NCBI GenBank assembly: GCA_023380585.1
Contig: JAMCRN010000017.1
Span: forward strand, 1 to 38,589
From: Candidatus Parvarchaeota archaeon
GTDB lineage: Archaea; Nanobdellota; Nanobdellia; Parvarchaeales; Parvarchaeaceae
Direction of reading: 5' to 3'
DNA length: 38,589 nucleotides
The position numbers were made by a program, and so were the translations under genes. The notes below the pieces were generated by a model. That model did no database searches. It was not told the origin of the DNA and saw nothing but the letters and a program-made list of their open reading frames with translations. Positions 5,159 through 30,222 of this stretch are shown here, in pieces. Numbering within the stretch: position 1 is the stretch's first letter; every line of letters starts with the position of its first letter.

Positions 5159-5668
5159 TCATTTTCTCTCTGCGGCTTCCCTTATCTGCGCTATCGCTTC
5201 TTCCTTTCCCTTAAACCCATGGAATTTCATGAATTTGCCTTTCTCAAGTTCCTTGTAATGCTCAAAGAAATGCTTTATCTTCTGTTTCAGGGTCTCGGGA
5301 ATATCTGCCTCGGTCTTTATTGAAGATGAGAAAGGATCTACCTTCTCTACCGGAACGGCTATCACCTTGTTATCTTCCCCCTCTTCGTCACTCATCTCAG
5401 CTATTCCGACCGCCCTGCACTTGACTACAATCCCCGAGGCTATCGACACTGAAGAAATGACCATCACGTCCAGCGGGTCCCCGTCTTTGCCTTTTGTTGA
5501 TGTGATAAACCCATAGTTTGTCGGATATACCATGGATGTAAAAAGCACCCTGTCCAGCTTTATCGTCTCCAATTCCTCGTCATATTCGTACTTGCAGTTA
5601 CTGCCGGTAGGTATCTCTATAAACGCATAAAAAGTTTCCGGAAAATCTTTTGTTTGTTTAGACTCCAT
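5159..5668 (-). CDS. ppa: Inorganic pyrophosphatase (soluble family I)
   Basis: Hydrolyses pyrophosphate to phosphate, pulling forward tRNA charging, nucleic acid synthesis and acyl-CoA formation. The 169-residue length is typical of prokaryotic family I enzymes. The metal-binding signature DGDPLDVMV is intact, preceded by YPTNYGFI, and YEYDEELETIKLDRVLF matches the conserved N-terminal part that carries substrate-binding Lys and Arg residues. The C-terminal HFFEHYKELE...GF pattern is also conserved. A TATA-like TTTAAATACA (reverse strand, about 5689-5698) sits about 25 nt before the ATG, so expression is probably leaderless and monocistronic. The enzyme is cytoplasmic. Confidence 0.95.
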   Translation of the reverse strand: MESKQTKDFPETFYAFIEIPTGSNCKYEYDEELETIKLDRVLFTSMVYPTNYGFITSTKGKDGDPLDVMVISSVSIASGIVVKCRAVGIAEMSDEEGEDNKVIAVPVEKVDPFSSSIKTEADIPETLKQKIKHFFEHYKELEKGKFMKFHGFKGKEEAIAQIREAAERK

Positions 5669-5892: not shown

Positions 5893-7308
5893 TTATTCGC
5901 TGCAGCAGCTTAAATCCTCTATATTATGGTAAAATGATAAAGCCGCGAGTTTTGTTATCTCGCTTAATGTTGGAAACACGTGGACCGTATCTATTATATC
6001 ATCTACTGTAAGCCTAAATTTTACAGCTAATGCGGCTTCGTGTATTAGATCCGCGGCGTTCTCCCCCACTATCTCCACCCCTAGTATACGTTTTGTATTG
6101 GCGTTTATGACCATCTTTATCAACCCTCGCGTATCTTTTATTATGCTGGCTTTCGCCAGGTCTTTGAACATAACTGGCTGGCAGGCGCATTTTATGCCCT
6201 TGCCATTTGCTTCTTTGTCCGTTAGTCCTACCCTGGCTACTTCCGGAAAAGTAAAAACAGCGGAAGGTACAGAATTTAAATCTATCGCTATCTTTTTGGC
6301 ACTAAACGCATTTATAGTCGCTTTGTTGCCTTCTGCAGCTGCTAACGCTTCCAGCATAGGCTCCCCGGTTACGTCTCCCGCAGAATAAATACCGCTTATG
6401 GATGTTTCCATATATTTGTTTATTTTTATAAAACCATCTTTATTTAATTTTATACCTGTCCTGCTCAAGTTTAATTTTTCTATGTTTGGGCTTCTTCCAG
6501 CAGCAAGCAATATTTCCTCTGCAGTCGCTTTCTTTTTTATCCCCTTTACAGAAAAAGATACCTTTACAAGGCCGTTTGCCTTCGAAACTTCGTTTATATC
6601 CACGCTGGTTATTATCTTTATTCCTTCCTCTTTTAAGTACTGTTCAAGGTAATAGCTCACTTCTGGTTCCCAACCAGGTAGTATCCTCTCGTTTCTCTGG
6701 AGCAAGGTCACATTTACTCCAAAATGCGCAAACATCTCTGCAAACTCAAGCCCGAGGGCTCCTCCGCCTATAATAATGATTGATTTTGGCAGCTTCTTCA
6801 TAGAAAGCGCTTCTTCATTTGTCAGGTACTTTACTTTGTTAAGACCTTCTATCTTCGGTATTTTGGTCCTCGCGCCGGTTGCTATCAATATTTTCTTCGC
6901 TTTTATCTCGCTTCCGTTTACTATCAAAGTATTTTTATCCTTGAAGCTTGCAAACTCATTTATATATTTTACATTTTTTAGTTTGCCGAGAACTTTCTGA
7001 TATTTAGAGAAACGCATGCTCCCTACTAGAAATTCCTTTTCCCGTATTATTTTGGGGAAATTTTCTATCTCGGCAGAATAATATAACCCGTCGAATCTTT
7101 TAAGATTTATTTTATCTAAAAAATTGCCTACTTTTATAAGCCTTTTGCTCGGTACGCATCCTACATTTATGCATGTTCCACCTAAAAGCGTGCCTTTTGT
7201 TTCATTTTTTCCTATTATAACAGTTTTGATACCTAATTCATCTGCCTTTAAGGCTGCAGCAAATGCGGCTGCACCTTGTCCCACTATTGCGTATTCATAT
7301 TCTTCCAT
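5893..7308 (-). CDS. merA: Mercuric reductase MerA (no N-terminal metal-binding domain)
   Basis: A flavoprotein disulfide reductase that should reduce Hg(II) to volatile Hg(0) with NADPH. The redox-active pair is in GGTCINVGCVPSK (Cys46 and Cys51 from the chosen start), FAD and NAD(P) sites are AIVGQGAAA and IIIGGGALGLEFAEMF, and the dimerisation domain ends in LSCCSE. The vicinal Cys468-Cys469 at the extreme C-terminus, in the context KLAALSFYHNIEDLSCC, separates MerA from dihydrolipoamide dehydrogenase. The N-terminal GMTCxxC domain found in many bacterial MerAs is absent, as in other archaeal forms. I use the ATG at 7308 rather than 7332: it is preceded by GGGAGAGGAAG and puts the FAD motif at the usual distance. 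It overlaps the ArsR gene by 14 nt and is last in a four-gene operon. Confidence 0.88.
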   Translation of the reverse strand: MEEYEYAIVGQGAAAFAAALKADELGIKTVIIGKNETKGTLLGGTCINVGCVPSKRLIKVGNFLDKINLKRFDGLYYSAEIENFPKIIREKEFLVGSMRFSKYQKVLGKLKNVKYINEFASFKDKNTLIVNGSEIKAKKILIATGARTKIPKIEGLNKVKYLTNEEALSMKKLPKSIIIIGGGALGLEFAEMFAHFGVNVTLLQRNERILPGWEPEVSYYLEQYLKEEGIKIITSVDINEVSKANGLVKVSFSVKGIKKKATAEEILLAAGRSPNIEKLNLSRTGIKLNKDGFIKINKYMETSISGIYSAGDVTGEPMLEALAAAEGNKATINAFSAKKIAIDLNSVPSAVFTFPEVARVGLTDKEANGKGIKCACQPVMFKDLAKASIIKDTRGLIKMVINANTKRILGVEIVGENAADLIHEAALAVKFRLTVDDIIDTVHVFPTLSEITKLAALSFYHNIEDLSCCSE

Positions 7309-7618
7309 TATCTTCCTCTCCCAAAACACCACACTTTTTCAAGTATGCCTCATATGTTTTAACATGTGTCATAATCATAGAAACTATCTCTTTTATCTCA
7401 TGATTTATACTGTATATCCTTTTCCTTCCGTCTCTCCTGACATTTATAATTTTACAGTTAAGAAGGCAGCTTAAGTCATGTGAAAGGTGCGTCTGTTCTA
7501 TCCCTAAGGTTTTTTGTAGCTCCCCTGCACATAACTCTTTTTTCCTGAGCTCCGTAAGTATATCAAATCTGTTTTTATTCGCAAATGCATCAAAGAAGAG
7601 ACTAGTTGAGTTTTTCAT
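7295..7618 (-). CDS. ArsR/SmtB-family metal-responsive repressor (MerR-like role)
   Basis: A 107-residue winged-helix protein of the ArsR family, with N-terminal helices (FFDAFANKNRFDILTEL), helix-turn-helix (GIEQTHLSHDLSCLL) and a beta wing (INVRRDGRKRIYSI). Four Cys residues (30, 51, 55, 96) are suitable for thiophilic metal sensing; Cys51-x3-Cys55 lies in the recognition helix and Cys96 near the C-terminal helix. In Sulfolobus the mercury regulator is also an ArsR-type protein rather than a bacterial MerR, which supports a Hg(II)-derepressed repressor here. Its ATG overlaps the end of the thioredoxin-like gene by 4 nt and its end overlaps merA. The likely operator is the inverted repeat at 8665-8686, which implies autoregulation of the whole operon. 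Hg specificity is inferred from context. Confidence 0.82.
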   Translation of the reverse strand: MKNSTSLFFDAFANKNRFDILTELRKKELCAGELQKTLGIEQTHLSHDLSCLLNCKIINVRRDGRKRIYSINHEIKEIVSMIMTHVKTYEAYLKKCGVLGEEDNGRI

Positions 7619-8169
7619 AAACCGTCCTTTGATATAATATTTTCAAGATTTCCTATCCCGTTTGCGATTCCTTCTCCGACATAAAGTATTTTGCCGTTTG
7701 GACTTATGAGATAATATATATCAAGTTGGAACGTCGGCGGGGTGTTATAAGCTAAAGTCATGTTGTAACTTGCGATTCCTCCTTCTATATATGTATTGTT
7801 ATTTCCGTACTGTGAAACAAATTGTGAGATTGACGGACCGGGACTTCCAAGGTCATCGTACTGCTCTAGCTCTATAATTTTTACACCGTGTTCTTTAAAG
7901 AATGGTATGTTGTCTGCTACGGCGGTATTGCCTTGTGCGCAGCTACTGCACCAAGTAGCTACAAACCATAAAAGCAGTGGGTTTCCCCTATAATTACTTA
8001 TGCTCTCTGTACTACCATTAGCGAGTTGAAACGCGTAATCTGGAGCAGTTTCCCCAACCGAAAGATATTTGGTCGGTCTTGCTTTGTTCAATACAAAGAG
8101 GTTCAGTATAATTATCAAAGCTATTATTGCAACTGCAACGTAGAGGAAATACTTTATTTTTATTCTCAT
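7615..8169 (-). CDS. Membrane-anchored TlpA/redoxin-type thioredoxin-like protein
   Basis: A 184-residue protein with one N-terminal membrane helix (about 7-27) and an outward-facing thioredoxin-like domain. The active site is WFVATWCSSCAQG (Cys74, Cys77), preceded by the redoxin start GETAPDYAFQLANG and followed by a cis-Pro region at TPPTFQLDIYYLI. TlpA/ResA proteins are extracytoplasmic thiol oxidoreductases. Its position between a Cys-Cys membrane protein and the ArsR-MerA pair, with 4-nt overlaps on both sides, ties it to that operon. It could carry or reduce thiol-bound metal outside the cell, taking the place of the small MerP protein of bacterial mer operons; that role is inference. 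A general disulfide function is the alternative. Confidence 0.85.
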   Translation of the reverse strand: MRIKIKYFLYVAVAIIALIIILNLFVLNKARPTKYLSVGETAPDYAFQLANGSTESISNYRGNPLLLWFVATWCSSCAQGNTAVADNIPFFKEHGVKIIELEQYDDLGSPGPSISQFVSQYGNNNTYIEGGIASYNMTLAYNTPPTFQLDIYYLISPNGKILYVGEGIANGIGNLENIISKDGL

Positions 8170-8660
8170 TTTTTAACCTCGCAGTCGCAACTTTTATTGA
8201 TATTTTTAGTTATTTGTATTAAACCGAAAAAGGCGATTATAGCGCCTGCTGCTATAAATGCAGGTCCATAAGTGGAGAAGACTGATTGCACCTTCCCCGT
8301 GTTTCCTATTATAAAAGAGGTTGAAAATCCGAATACGGCCATCAAAGACGGGACTATGCTTGTACAGCAAAGGCTGCTTGGGAGTATAGCACCAATTATC
8401 GAGCTCAGAGCGAGTCTTTTGCTTGTTTTTGTCCTTATCCTATAGGAATATACGTTAAGTGTTATGACCAAGCTTACTAAAATGGAGATTATAACTGCGG
8501 AAAGTAAATCAAAGTATATATAATAACCTTTGAAGTCTATTATCCCTGTTGCTGAGCTTTCGAGGAGATAAAAATATAGTGTAAATATTGCAACGGATAA
8601 GATCAAGAAAACTGATGCGTATTCTTTTACTTTTATTACTTTTTTTATATCCCGAATCAT
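8166..8660 (-). CDS. Four-helix membrane protein with Cys-Cys motif, candidate mercuric ion importer
   Basis: A 164-residue membrane protein with about four helices (near 14-33, 49-71, 86-118, 133-151). The third helix carries a vicinal pair, Cys98-Cys99, in LPSSLCCTSIVPSLMAVFG, and the tail ends in CDC (Cys158, Cys160). MerT, MerF and MerC importers share the logic of a Cys-Cys pair in a helix followed by Pro and Gly, plus a second cytoplasmic-side Cys pair that hands Hg(II) to MerA. It is the first gene of the operon that ends in merA. I cannot claim homology to MerT from sequence alone; overall similarity looks low. TATA box TTTATATA (reverse strand, 8683-8690) and the operator precede it, and the ATG at 8660 is probably leaderless. 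Confidence 0.7.
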   Translation of the reverse strand: MIRDIKKVIKVKEYASVFLILSVAIFTLYFYLLESSATGIIDFKGYYIYFDLLSAVIISILVSLVITLNVYSYRIRTKTSKRLALSSIIGAILPSSLCCTSIVPSLMAVFGFSTSFIIGNTGKVQSVFSTYGPAFIAAGAIIAFFGLIQITKNINKSCDCEVKK

Positions 8661-8664
8661 TCGT

Positions 8665-8690
8665 TATATGAAAATTTTATCATATATAAA
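8665..8690 (-). promoter_or_regulatory. TATA box and inverted-repeat operator of the mercury operon
   Basis: Arms TATATGA (8665-8671) and TCATATA (8680-8686) form a perfect 7-bp inverted repeat with an 8-nt spacer. On the minus strand the TATA box (TTTATATA, 8683-8690) overlaps the distal arm, and the start codon at 8660 begins 5 nt beyond the proximal arm. A dimer bound here would block TBP or the polymerase, the usual mode of ArsR-type repressors in archaea. Seen: the repeat and its placement. Inferred: binding by the operon's own regulator. Confidence 0.65.
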
Positions 8691-8888: not shown

Positions 8889-9500
8889 ATGTTTGTAGAC
8901 GAACTCGCATTTGATTTATTCGTGCTGGCATTCGGCGCGTTTCTTCTTGCTTACTTATTAAGTGATGTATACTTATCGTACAGGAAAAAGCATTTAGAGG
9001 TTAAGAGCAGACTTCTTGGTCTTTCAGTCCCAATCGGTATCATAGGGGTATATCTACTAATAGTCGGCATTGTATCTCAATTATCTTGGTTCTTACCAGG
9101 ACCGTACAATATGCTTTTTTATGACCCGATGGTAGCATTTGGACTGATATTAGTTGCATTCTCACTCGGAATAAGGTACAATCTCAAGCTTGATTATATT
9201 GGGTTCTTAGCGCTCATGGCGGGCATAATGACCATATGGTACGGCATTTCCGGCTACAAGTTAGGACTTACAAAAACACCTCTTGAATTTTTGGGGTTAT
9301 TTGTTCTCTATGGCGTGGCTGGGATATTAACATGGCCGGTACTGATGATGTTTAATAGAGTACATAGAGGTATAAAGACCATCCCTCTCAGCTGGCAAGT
9401 GATTATCGCAACTCTCTGGGTAGTCTTGATACTTTCAGGCATAGCCGCTGCTATTATAGGAGGGTTTGCCTTGCCGGGACATTTAGCTAATCCACCATAG
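8889..9500 (+). CDS. DUF981-like integral membrane protein
   Basis: A 203-residue protein with about six hydrophobic helices and short loops. The segment LPGPYNMLFYDPMVAFG after helix 3 resembles the characteristic loop of DUF981 membrane proteins, which I know mainly from acidophilic and thermophilic archaea and some bacteria; their function is unknown. No catalytic or metal-binding motif is visible. A TATA-like ATATATAAAG at 8861-8870 sits about 24 nt before the ATG, giving a leaderless start. The gene is divergent from the mercury operon and separated from it by a 228-nt spacer that contains a 6-bp hairpin at 8768-8784 (ACAGAG/CTCTGT) of unknown meaning. Confidence 0.65.
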   Translation: MFVDELAFDLFVLAFGAFLLAYLLSDVYLSYRKKHLEVKSRLLGLSVPIGIIGVYLLIVGIVSQLSWFLPGPYNMLFYDPMVAFGLILVAFSLGIRYNLKLDYIGFLALMAGIMTIWYGISGYKLGLTKTPLEFLGLFVLYGVAGILTWPVLMMFNRVHRGIKTIPLSWQVIIATLWVVLILSGIAAAIIGGFALPGHLANPP

Positions 9501-20542: not shown

Positions 20543-21727
20543 ATGGCAAAGATAGGACCAGCTTCTTTTAAGTATGTAGTAAGAGCCAAGTTCGTGGCAG
20601 ACAGTCTCGTTGACAAGCCAGATGTGATAGGGGCTGTCTTCGGACAGACAGAAGGCCTGCTTGGTGAGGAATTAGACCTGCGGGAGGCCCAGAAAAACGG
20701 GAAAATAGGGAGGATAGATGTACAGACTTCGTCTTCCGGGGGTAAGACCAGCGGGGAGATAATACTGCCAACTTCGCTTGACCTTGCAGAGACTGCCTTA
20801 ATAGGTGCTGCAATAGAGACCATAGACAGGATAGGACCCTCAAAGGCAAGTGTTACGGTTGAAAAAATTGAAGATGTCAGGACCTCCAAAAGGCAGTATA
20901 TAATAGGAAAGGCGCAGAAACTCTTGAACGAAGCGCTTAAGACCAGCGCTGTCGACACGACAGAACTGCTGCAAAAACTTTATGAAGATGTAAGACAGAA
21001 AGAATTCGTAGAGTACGGTCCAGAAAAACTGCCTGCCGGCCCTGATGTGAAAGAATCAGAAGATATAATAGTTGTAGAGGGTAGGGCTGACGTGATGAAC
21101 ATGCTAAAGCATGGATTTACCAATGTTATAGGGATGAACGGCACGAACATACCACAGACAGTTATAGACTTAAGCAAAAAGAAGATTATCACACTTTTTG
21201 TAGACGGAGACAGAGGAGGAGAGATGATAATAAATTCTCTTATGCAACAAGGCCACGTTGATTTTATAGCGCGTGCGCCTAATGGCACTGAAGTCGAAGA
21301 ACTTTCGAAAAAAGAGATAAACCAGGCTCTGCGCGCTAAGGTCCCCGCAGAAGAATTCGACGCGGGGCAGACAAAACGAGAGGCTCCAACTGAGAAAAAG
21401 AGGGCCGCACCTTCGAATGCAGAGACCCCTGCTGCCATAAAGGAAAAAGCACCAGCGCTGATAAATGAAATAATAGGCACGAGAGGGGCTTTTCTACTGA
21501 ACGAAAAATTCGAGATAATGGGAAAGATACCTTACAAAGAAGTAGAAGTGTCGATACTCAACATAGAGAATATATATATGCTTGTATTGGACGGGCCGAT
21601 ATCCGATGAGATAGCAAAAGCAGCAGAAGAGAGTGGAGTCAAGTATGTCATCGGAAGCAGAGTATATGGAAGCTCCAGTGATACTATGCTGCTATCATAT
21701 GAAGATGTGGGATACAGATATCGATAA
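20543..21727 (+). CDS. dnaG: Archaeal DnaG-like TOPRIM primase
   Basis: A 394-residue archaeal DnaG homologue. In archaea this protein has primase activity in some species and is a core partner of the RNA exosome. The TOPRIM domain (about 170-255) has the catalytic Glu in DIIVVEGRADVMNM and the DxD in LFVDGDRGGEM. The N-terminal archaeal domain (GPASFKYVVRAKFVADSLVDKPDVIGAVFGQTEGLLG) is characteristic. After a Lys/Glu/Ala-rich linker, a C-terminal domain (about 305-394) completes the normal archaeal form. Start choice is firm: a near-ideal Shine-Dalgarno GGAGGTG lies 5 nt before the ATG. The leader holds a GNRA hairpin and a possible 7-codon open frame (ATG at 20448), which I do not call as a gene. 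Confidence 0.95.
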   Translation: MAKIGPASFKYVVRAKFVADSLVDKPDVIGAVFGQTEGLLGEELDLREAQKNGKIGRIDVQTSSSGGKTSGEIILPTSLDLAETALIGAAIETIDRIGPSKASVTVEKIEDVRTSKRQYIIGKAQKLLNEALKTSAVDTTELLQKLYEDVRQKEFVEYGPEKLPAGPDVKESEDIIVVEGRADVMNMLKHGFTNVIGMNGTNIPQTVIDLSKKKIITLFVDGDRGGEMIINSLMQQGHVDFIARAPNGTEVEELSKKEINQALRAKVPAEEFDAGQTKREAPTEKKRAAPSNAETPAAIKEKAPALINEIIGTRGAFLLNEKFEIMGKIPYKEVEVSILNIENIYMLVLDGPISDEIAKAAEESGVKYVIGSRVYGSSSDTMLLSYEDVGYRYR

Positions 21728-21740
21728 CACAAACGATATA

Positions 21741-23021
21741 CTATCTTGCAGGAGACTTACCGCCTAGTTTTATCGTTTTCTTAGCTTCCTTAAAGAAAAA
21801 GTTCCTGCTGCCTTTTACGCTGGCTATTCCTTGGGATACGGCTTCTTCTGCTACAGCTGCAGCTACAGACGGGTAAAGGTCTTTGTCTAGCATCTTCGGC
21901 AGTATTTTATTTGGACTAATCCCTCTCTTCCTAGCAAAAGCAGCTAACTCCTCGGCAGCGGCTATCGCTAGTAAATTGTTTATCTCGGCAGTACGGGAAT
22001 CCAGAGTACCCCTGAACAAGCCAGGAAAAACAAGGCTGTTGTTTATCTGGTTCGGAAAATCAGAGCGGCCTGTACCTACTATATAGGCCCCAGCTCTTTT
22101 TGCCTGATGAGGGAATATCTCTGGTGTGGGGTTGGAATTAGCAAAGACTATCGGCCTCTTTGCCATACTGCGTATCCATTCCGGTCCTATAACTCCGGGC
22201 CCGGGCCTGCTAAAGGCAACGACTGCATCAGCACCCTGGAACGCTTTTTCAACTGTTTTTATATCGTATTTGTTTGAAAGCCGCATAGCATTGTATTTCC
22301 ATATATTTTCTTTTGATATGAGCTCTGCATCGTCCCTACCAGCATAAAGAACGCCCTTGCTATCGATTAATATTACATTACCGATGTCTGTGCCGTAATC
22401 CTTTAGAAGATTAAACAAAGATATATTGGCAGCGCCTGAACCGACTAGTATTATTCTAGCGCTTTTAATGTCCTTTCCGGCCAGTCTAAATGAATTTATC
22501 AGCGCAGCTAAGCTGACTGCAGCCGTGCCTTGCTGGTCATCATGCCATACCGGCACCTTAAGTTCTTTCTGCAGGCGTTCAAGCACAGCAAAACAGAAAG
22601 GGGAGGATATATCTTCAAGATGTATACCGCCAGATGCTACTGAAATCGCTTTTACTACGTTAACAAATTCGCCTTCATCTTTGCTCTCTATAGGTATTGG
22701 AACGGCGTTTACTCCTCCAAGCGTCTTGTAAAGCAATGATTTCCCCTCCATGACAGGCAGAGATGCTAGTGGGCCTATATCTCCTAAACCGAGCACTCTT
22801 GTGCCATTAGTGATTATAAAAATCGTGTTCCATCGCCATGTAAGCGCATAAGAGGCCTCTGGCTGTTTCCGGATAAGTTCTGATACGGCTGCGACGCCAG
22901 GTGTATAGACTATTAAAAAGTCTTTTGGGGACTTTATCTTAAAATTAGGTTTCAGACTTATCTTCCCTCCTATTTTCCTTGACAGTGCTATTGCTCTATT
23001 GGAGTAATCTGCGGTTTTCAT
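21741..23021 (-). CDS. Malic enzyme (malate dehydrogenase, decarboxylating)
   Basis: Converts malate to pyruvate and CO2 with NAD(P). The 426-residue length fits the short prokaryotic malic enzymes. Conserved blocks are VYTPGVAAVSE (catalytic Tyr), GDIGPLASLPVMEGKSLLYK with the catalytic Lys region, GGIHLEDISSPFCF, VPVWHDDQQGTA for metal binding, and the Rossmann ILVGSGAANIS. No phosphotransacetylase domain is fused. It is second in an operon behind the zinc-finger gene, 17 nt away, with AAGGAGCC just before the ATG. With isocitrate dehydrogenase and succinate dehydrogenase it forms part of the window's TCA-linked carbon flow. Cofactor preference cannot be read with confidence. Confidence 0.92.
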   Translation of the reverse strand: MKTADYSNRAIALSRKIGGKISLKPNFKIKSPKDFLIVYTPGVAAVSELIRKQPEASYALTWRWNTIFIITNGTRVLGLGDIGPLASLPVMEGKSLLYKTLGGVNAVPIPIESKDEGEFVNVVKAISVASGGIHLEDISSPFCFAVLERLQKELKVPVWHDDQQGTAAVSLAALINSFRLAGKDIKSARIILVGSGAANISLFNLLKDYGTDIGNVILIDSKGVLYAGRDDAELISKENIWKYNAMRLSNKYDIKTVEKAFQGADAVVAFSRPGPGVIGPEWIRSMAKRPIVFANSNPTPEIFPHQAKRAGAYIVGTGRSDFPNQINNSLVFPGLFRGTLDSRTAEINNLLAIAAAEELAAFARKRGISPNKILPKMLDKDLYPSVAAAVAEEAVSQGIASVKGSRNFFFKEAKKTIKLGGKSPAR

Positions 23022-29403: not shown

Positions 29404-30222
29404 TTAAGGTTCCAGCCTAGAAATCTCCGGCCGGCTGCATGCCGGTGCAACGTTGTTTATATCTTTGCAAATTAATGCTGATATGTAATCCGCCTCTTTA
29501 GATATCCCTTGGTTTATTAGCGAGCCTGACTGATTGAATGCCGATATTATCTTCTCTGGCAGCATACCTGTTCCGTTTGAATAGAATATTATTGGATGCC
29601 CATTAGAGAGAAGACTCGACCCTGCGCCTACCTCGAAGAAGTTTCCTCCTATAACGGTAAAAGGCACAGAGCCGGAAGGATCATATCTGTTCAGGAATTC
29701 TGTGTCTAGTCTTGTAGGCAGTTCCAGCTGCTGATCTGCATTGTTAAGAAGTTCAGATTCCGTGAAATTTACATAGTCTGACTGATAAGATAGGTGTGGG
29801 TTGAGAAAATTAAAAGTCCAGTCCCCCTCTGCCGCATGATAAAACAATGAGAATGGTTCTGGATTGGCGGTAAGGTTGGAAACTGGCGCATTACTTAAGT
29901 TTATCGCCTTACCATAATATGTCCAGTTACCGAAATTGCTCAAGGCATACAAGACAGCGTACCTCTCTGCGGCGCAATACTCGCACGCTTCTATACCTAT
30001 GAAATTAAAACTCACTTTCCCGTTCACGGTGTATGGCGCAGCGCCTTTAACTTCATTCCACCCATTTCCCACCCTTACGGTAGAGTTTCCATTGACAAAA
30101 AAGAACAGATATATTATTATTACTGCAATAACCACCACCAGAACTAAGAATAGATATAACAGCTTCTTTATCTTTATACCGCTCTGCTTAGTGTAGTCTT
30201 GAGCTACCATTTCTTCAGACAT
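29404..30222 (-). CDS. DUF929-like membrane-anchored thioredoxin-fold protein
   Basis: A 272-residue protein with one N-terminal membrane helix (about 21-43) and an outer domain. FNFIGIEACEYCAAERYAVLYALSNFGNW contains a CxxC (Cys80, Cys83) in a thioredoxin-like setting, and matches my recollection of DUF929 proteins from Sulfolobales and other acidophiles. Other pieces (GSVPFTVIGGNFFEVGAG) fit the cis-Pro side of such a fold. Several N-x-S/T sites agree with an outside location. Two more Cys near the C-terminus (CKDINNVAPAC) may form a disulfide. The role is unknown; oxidative folding of surface proteins is plausible. The gene is transcribed alone. Confidence 0.8.
   Translation of the reverse strand: MSEEMVAQDYTKQSGIKIKKLLYLFLVLVVVIAVIIIYLFFFVNGNSTVRVGNGWNEVKGAAPYTVNGKVSFNFIGIEACEYCAAERYAVLYALSNFGNWTYYGKAINLSNAPVSNLTANPEPFSLFYHAAEGDWTFNFLNPHLSYQSDYVNFTESELLNNADQQLELPTRLDTEFLNRYDPSGSVPFTVIGGNFFEVGAGSSLLSNGHPIIFYSNGTGMLPEKIISAFNQSGSLINQGISKEADYISALICKDINNVAPACSRPEISRLEP

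Follow-up and report, generated by a model that had tools for sequence, protein, structure and literature searches.

A candidate mercury import pair encoded beside merA in an operon of a Parvarchaeota archaeon

In the accepted relay for mercury uptake and reduction, Hg(II) passes from Cys33 and Cys36 of MerP to Cys24 and Cys25 of MerT, on to Cys76 and Cys82, and then to Cys558 and Cys559 of MerA (PMC5715351). Other transporters have two helices (MerF and MerE) or four (MerC) (PMC3466566), and in MerE the first helix bears two paired cysteines (PMC5715351). Boyd and Barkay (2012) found MerP and MerT absent from Archaea save for one merP homologue, and their survey left open how Hg(II) reaches archaeal MerA (PMC3466566). 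Genes for merA have already been reported in Parvarchaeota and Micrarchaeota (10 and 22 genomes; PMC8261052; PMC7779479). A literature search for work joining merA with TlpA or DUF3105 found nothing relevant, and the neighbours of merA in these two phyla are not reported there. Here we describe a mer operon on a contig of 38,589 nucleotides from a Candidatus Parvarchaeota archaeon (JAMCRN010000017.1, the whole of which is called the window). It encodes a Cys-Cys membrane protein (CC protein) and a thioredoxin-like protein beside merA. From sequence and linkage we propose, with a probability of roughly 0.7, that the operon uses this previously unrecognised pair for Hg(II) import instead of MerT and MerP. 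The pair would then be a concrete and widespread candidate answer to the question of archaeal uptake.

Proteins of the operon and the proposed relay

The four overlapping genes named in a preliminary description of this DNA, for the CC protein, a TlpA-like protein, an ArsR-type regulator and MerA, were all present as open reading frames on the minus strand (Table 1). The CC protein was said there to carry its Cys-Cys pair in a membrane helix and a CxC tail, and this was borne out: Cys98-Cys99 lie inside helix 3 and Cys158/Cys160 in the C-terminal tail, and there are no further cysteines. Cysteines were confined to the membrane pair and the tail in all 25 aligned homologues. Hydropathy indicated four helices, with positive charge at the N-terminus, in the middle loop and at the C-terminus. 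This pattern implies an N-in/C-in topology with a cytosolic tail.

The CC protein had been described as having no obvious overall similarity to MerT, which proved wrong for its C-terminal half. Pfam MerT (PF02411) matched residues 82-156 at 20.2 bits (E=6e-4), below the gathering cut-off of 32.9, and matched 5 of 24 homologues at E<=0.1 (best 6.6e-5). A profile of 24 CC family members was compared by hhalign with nine MerT sequences, from Eremiobacterota genomes only, and CC residues 78-159 aligned with the first two transmembrane helices of MerT (TM1-TM2; 97.4% probability, score 73.6, 72 columns). Pairwise hhalign E-values differ from database E-values, and column shuffles served as the control: 60 shuffles scored at most 23.9 (at most 8% probability), reversed MerT scored 21 and windows of one unrelated membrane protein at most 17. 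With all cysteines masked the probability was still 92-93%. The same comparison found no counterpart in MerT for the N-terminal half of the CC protein (0.2%), and none in the CC protein for MerT TM3. Judged from these profiles, the C-terminal half is homologous to MerT TM1-TM2 and forms a MerT-superfamily core in a new architecture, since TM3 is missing and two N-terminal helices are added. The three-helix MerT plan, with a cysteine loop between TM2 and TM3, is not followed, the cysteines lying instead in the C-terminal tail.

The earlier view of the importer as a new family needs correcting to that of a remodelled MerT-superfamily member; for the C-terminal half, a wholly new family is excluded by hhalign with its shuffled, reversed, unrelated-membrane-protein and Cys-masked controls. 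Membership of MerC, MerE or MerF was rejected, as no such family appeared at E<=1 in Pfam and NCBIfam scans. An AlphaFold model of the CC protein was of moderate confidence (predicted local distance difference test score, pLDDT, 69), and a PDB profile search with the CC family gave one match, at chance level. A paralogue group, 24-29% identical, occurs in eight Parvarchaeota genomes (L041-L048, for example L043:5125-5649). Its motif is PFCCNVLIPL, with FCC placed in a membrane helix, and in 8/8 loci it stands beside neither merA nor a TlpA gene.

The model of the thioredoxin-like protein (pLDDT 88) shows a thioredoxin fold with a single anchor helix (2-28) and Cys74/Cys77 at a helix start. Its best Foldseek match was ResA (2.8e-11). 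Pfam placed it in the AhpC-TSA/Redoxin family and gave no match to the heavy-metal-associated (HMA) family, whose fold is that of MerP. When the family was aligned to PDB sequences with HMMER, ResA LPTTFLI lay over lDiYYLi, so that Asp150 occupies the cis-proline position; in the model it opens the strand (150-155) on which this proline normally sits. Among 93 cassette proteins covering the region, the position holds Asp in 87, Glu in six and Pro in none, and all 93 have CxxC. ResA aligns with the cassette proteins here as it does in the PDB-based alignment. A cis-proline is considered to prevent metal binding at the CxxC (2007 paper). Because this supposedly metal-excluding residue is replaced by Asp or Glu, the protein may be a metal-binding substitute for MerP. 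This role had been suggested for it before; the invariable loss of the proline strengthens the suggestion, and Hg(II) binding itself stays a prediction. The protein also suggests how metal carriage could arise in a thioredoxin fold. In genome G006 a stretch of about 45 residues that includes the segment NTPPTFQLDIYYLI is repeated within the corresponding gene (L038:1730-2425), through either a duplication or an assembly fault.

MerA scored 533 bits against TIGR02053 (cut-off 454) in the NCBIfam scan, and 376 bits against the lipoamide dehydrogenase profile, under that profile's cut-off of 409. Its best five PDB sequence matches were all mercuric reductases (top 4ywo, E=5e-108), followed by dihydrolipoyl dehydrogenase (6e-72), and the motifs GTCINVGC, LSCC, KY (Tyr of SKY) and VFP line up with 4ywo and 5x1y. 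Of the residues listed as diagnostic of MerA, which include Tyr264 in Bacillus numbering and Tyr or an archaeal Phe at 605 (PMC3466566), it has the CxxxxC pair, the C-terminal vicinal Cys pair, Tyr264 and the archaeal Phe. The profile scores and PDB ranking rule out a dihydrolipoamide dehydrogenase. Thus the C-terminal Cys-Cys on which the MerA call had been based is present, together with the CxxxxC, and the feared grouping with dihydrolipoamide dehydrogenases was not seen; by these marks the protein is a genuine mercuric reductase. Its start is most likely the ATG at 7308 rather than the GTG at 7332, because this gives the length of most orthologues. In genome G001, merA (L029:8380-9748) is broken into two overlapping frames by a frameshift or a sequencing error.

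Each station of the MerP-MerT-MerA relay has an equivalent among these proteins, from which a similar relay can be proposed. Outside the cell, the anchored thioredoxin-like protein would capture Hg(II) with its CxxC, where Asp or Glu in place of cis-proline would let the site hold the metal. Hg(II) would then move to Cys98-Cys99 within helix 3 of the MerT-related CC protein, onward to the cytosolic tail cysteines, and from the tail to the C-terminal Cys-Cys of MerA, to be reduced to volatile Hg(0). The ArsR repressor would occupy a palindrome over the TATA box and leave it when Hg(II) binds at Cys51/Cys55/Cys96. Protein identity, linkage, conserved positions and MerT-core homology are directly supported; binding, direction, hand-over and derepression are what we infer from them.

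Distribution of the pair

The genomes searched are mostly metagenome-assembled genomes (MAGs), so that absence of a gene is weak evidence, and the group labels of loci rest on database record names or on the phylum searched. A CC orthologue was found in 16/32 genomes of the window's family, the relatives being 54-75% identical. At the Parvarchaeota loci, including the window, the thioredoxin-like gene is adjacent in 16/16, ArsR in 15/16 and merA in 13/16; in genome G030 merA sits on a separate contig from the pair. The CC family profile also matched 70 of 295 Micrarchaeota and 17 of 149 Eremiobacterota genomes. Among the loci examined, the pair was adjacent in 49/50 from Micrarchaeota (45/50 with merA) and in 15/17 from Eremiobacterota (13/17 with merA), and five of the nine lacking merA in these two phyla are interrupted by contig ends. 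Over all three phyla, the two genes are adjacent at 80/83 loci and have merA beside them at 71/83. A family lying mostly away from merA, named in the preliminary description as an outcome that would count against it, was thus not found. Its picture of a complete import-and-reduce system is upheld for the reductase and the linkage, with transport as the predicted part.

Gene order is variable: MerA precedes CC in some loci, and TlpA precedes CC with a divergent MerA in others. The linkage of CC, TlpA and merA is therefore more than inherited synteny. The order CC-TlpA-ArsR-MerA was found again in other species in different genomic settings, so the layout is not due to chance. Cassette flanks vary among Parvarchaeota species, and several adjoin a primase-like and malic-enzyme gene pair (L027, L029-L031, L033, L037). 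The window has copies of that pair (20543-23021) with no cassette there, which indicates that the cassette has moved.

Cultured organisms carry the pair on plasmids. A direct CC query of plasmids gave no match, and relatives were reached only through the thioredoxin-like query. Plasmids of Acidithiobacillus ferrooxidans YQ-N3, Acidiphilium multivorum AIU301 (pACMV1) and JZ-6 have merA, a redoxin gene and a 'hypothetical protein' in that order; Halorussus vallis has merB, merA, ArsR, a DUF3105 protein with a thioredoxin-like domain, and a 'hypothetical protein'. Three of the CC proteins found in this way read ALLCCTPILP..SCAC, TLLCCSPILP..YCTC and PLLCCSPLLP..TECSV. The plasmid proteins matched the CC family profile at 2e-15 to 8e-20, with a full-length hhalign probability of 99%; in their partners the cis-proline position reads VDVY or PDIF. 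MerT was not named in a Pfam scan of the two proteobacterial CC proteins. The Halorussus thioredoxin-like domain (L191:4515-5966) sits in a single fusion protein with zinc-finger-like CxxC repeats and DUF3105, and adjoins merA and merB. Current annotation overlooks the pair, recording it on plasmids as 'hypothetical', 'redoxin' or 'DUF3105', and the cultured Acidiphilium multivorum, Acidithiobacillus ferrooxidans and Halorussus carriers make the idea testable without growing an uncultured archaeon.

These occurrences contradict the earlier notion of a system special to a small archaeon, as the pair is also present in Micrarchaeota, in Eremiobacterota and on bacterial and Halorussus plasmids. 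An archaea-only system is excluded by the Eremiobacterota, Acidiphilium and Acidithiobacillus carriers. A recent move of the cassette from one domain to the other was not supported, Parvarchaeota and Eremiobacterota forming separate clades in CC and MerA trees, which were midpoint-rooted FastTree trees with no outside references and serve as a rough check only. No match was found in the viral contigs searched.

Several observations weigh against mercury import by the pair. No merA was found in two Parvarchaeota-family genomes that carry it (G013 and G028), whose assemblies are 83% and 77% complete; these count because an importer without a reductase should be harmful. Four loci (L147, L154, L159 and L162) have CC-TlpA and no clear MerA within about 3.5 kb, and two genomes (G015 and G021) have merA genes with no CC-TlpA pair nearby. 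A fold search of the PDB with the CC model gave nothing below E=1, a result made uninformative by the pLDDT of 69. The merA locus of G015 (L049) is a different ArsR-merA pair, its MerA being 48% identical, with transposase-like and ATPase genes around it.

Regulation and genomic setting

The regulator scored 74.2 bits against NF033788 (cut-off 55), which places it in the winged-helix ArsR/SmtB family. All 79 proteins compared have Cys51 and Cys55, and 77/79 have Cys96; we take these residues to be equivalent to the thiol site of CmtR, the Cd/Pb-sensing ArsR subfamily, in which two cysteines near the recognition helix are joined by one at the C-terminus. The protein was not filed as CmtR, because it reached 33 bits against the CmtR profile NF047906 (cut-off 150).

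The TATA box (TTTATATA) lies so close to the initial ATG that the transcript should be leaderless. Across 11 species the sequences upstream of the operon are unlike one another, save for TTTATATATGATAAAA-TTTCATATAA directly before the ATG. The palindrome has a single match in the window (0 expected). It was found in 12/22 family genomes, once in each, by coordinates at the start of the mer operon and with 0 copies elsewhere. There was none in the searched genomes lacking the cassette, and the reversed control gave 0. Four cassette carriers (G004, G006, G028 and G030) have no exact copy. On this pattern, the palindrome is likely the ArsR operator.

Table 1. Features of the mer operon and its flanks in the window
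Feature	Position	Strand	Description
mer operon	5893-8660	minus	four overlapping genes, order CC-TlpA-ArsR-MerA
CC protein	8166-8660	minus	164 amino acids, four membrane helices; candidate Hg(II) importer of MerT ancestry
Thioredoxin-like protein	7615-8169	minus	184 amino acids, membrane-anchored, extracellular, TlpA/ResA-like; WC74SSC77, Asp150; candidate Hg(II)-binding MerP substitute
ArsR/SmtB repressor	7295-7618	minus	107 amino acids; CmtR-like thiol triad Cys51, Cys55, Cys96
MerA mercuric reductase	5893-7308	minus	471 amino acids; CINVGC redox site, C-terminal SCC, without NmerA domain
TATA box	8683-8690	minus	about 30 nucleotides upstream of first ATG; conserved in 11 aligned upstream regions
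Palindrome	8665-8686		22 bp, TATATGA-N8-TCATATA; overlaps TATA box, ends 4 nucleotides before ATG; candidate ArsR operator
Pyrophosphatase	5159-5668		flank of mer operon
DUF981 protein	8889-9500		divergent flank of mer operon

The host genome comprises 0.70 Mb in 31 contigs and is 83% complete; its same-family relatives are MAGs listed as Candidatus Parvarchaeota or Nanoarchaeota. Past the operon flanks lies a ribosomal protein cluster, whose members we take to be S13/S4/S11. A soluble inorganic pyrophosphatase gene is close to the cassette in the window and at three Micrarchaeota loci (L148, L150 and L151), possibly by chance, and a DUF981 membrane protein borders it in the window and at one Micrarchaeota locus (L078:8873-9553; 48% identical). 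At 29404-30222, adjoining succinate dehydrogenase genes, lies the gene for another membrane-anchored protein that has a CxxC-type motif (CEYC).

Alternative readings and comparison with known systems

The pair could instead be a thiol-redox conduit, in which the CC protein passes cytosolic electrons to the thioredoxin-like protein for repair of mercury-blocked or oxidised thiols outside the membrane, and any Hg(II) leaking in is dealt with by MerA. The TlpA/ResA ancestry of the thioredoxin-like protein would suit this, as would the constancy of CC-TlpA, greater than that of any other unit, and its presence in a few genomes with no detected merA. However, Asp or Glu replaces the cis-proline, a residue important in disulfide exchange, in 93/93; homology links the CC protein to MerT, and its Pfam and NCBIfam scans list no CcdA/DsbD family; and merA is present at most loci. 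We consider the conduit unlikely. Loss of the proline also weighs against a second alternative, in which the CC protein imports Hg(II) as MerT does and its partner is an ordinary disulfide reductase that keeps the importer cysteines reduced in an oxidising, acid setting. The retained WCxxC and ResA-like fold are consistent with this, but those cysteines are intramembrane or cytosolic and would be hard for an outside reductase to reach, and we judge this version improbable too. A role of the pair in handling a different soft metal, or in export, with no more than co-regulation linking it to MerA, seems very unlikely, since the cassette form is strongly tied to merA across phyla and to merB too in Halorussus, although the paralogues apart from merA and TlpA at eight loci (L041-L048) indicate that family members can do otherwise.

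An import pair thus remains our preferred reading: beside merA in tiny acid-mine archaea, unrelated bacteria and salt-loving archaea, the two genes look like a mercury uptake system. A wider proposal is that replacement of cis-proline by Asp or Glu converted a thioredoxin-fold protein from a disulfide enzyme to an extracellular mercury carrier, partnering a four-helix MerT relative in an import system across archaea and bacteria that would fill the supposed archaeal transporter gap. For this the odds appear to us to be about even.

The CC protein resembles MerT in its membrane-helix Cys-Cys, second helix and cytosolic cysteines, with homology over residues 78-159; it differs in lacking the third MerT helix, in its two added N-terminal helices, in its Pfam score below the cut-off and in having a partner other than MerP. 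It shares four helices with MerC and a cysteine pair in a helix with MerE, whereas neither these nor MerF matched it in the family scans. Like MerP, the thioredoxin-like protein is exported, has a CxxC and is encoded beside the transporter and MerA; unlike MerP, it is a membrane-anchored thioredoxin fold. Fold and WCxxC are shared with ResA and TlpA, and the missing cis-proline sets it apart from them. Finally, the operon agrees with archaeal mer operons (Sulfolobus merA, arsR-type regulator and TRASH protein) in its ArsR-family regulator and in the MerA Phe where bacterial MerA has Tyr605, and differs from them in the candidate transporter pair beside merA.

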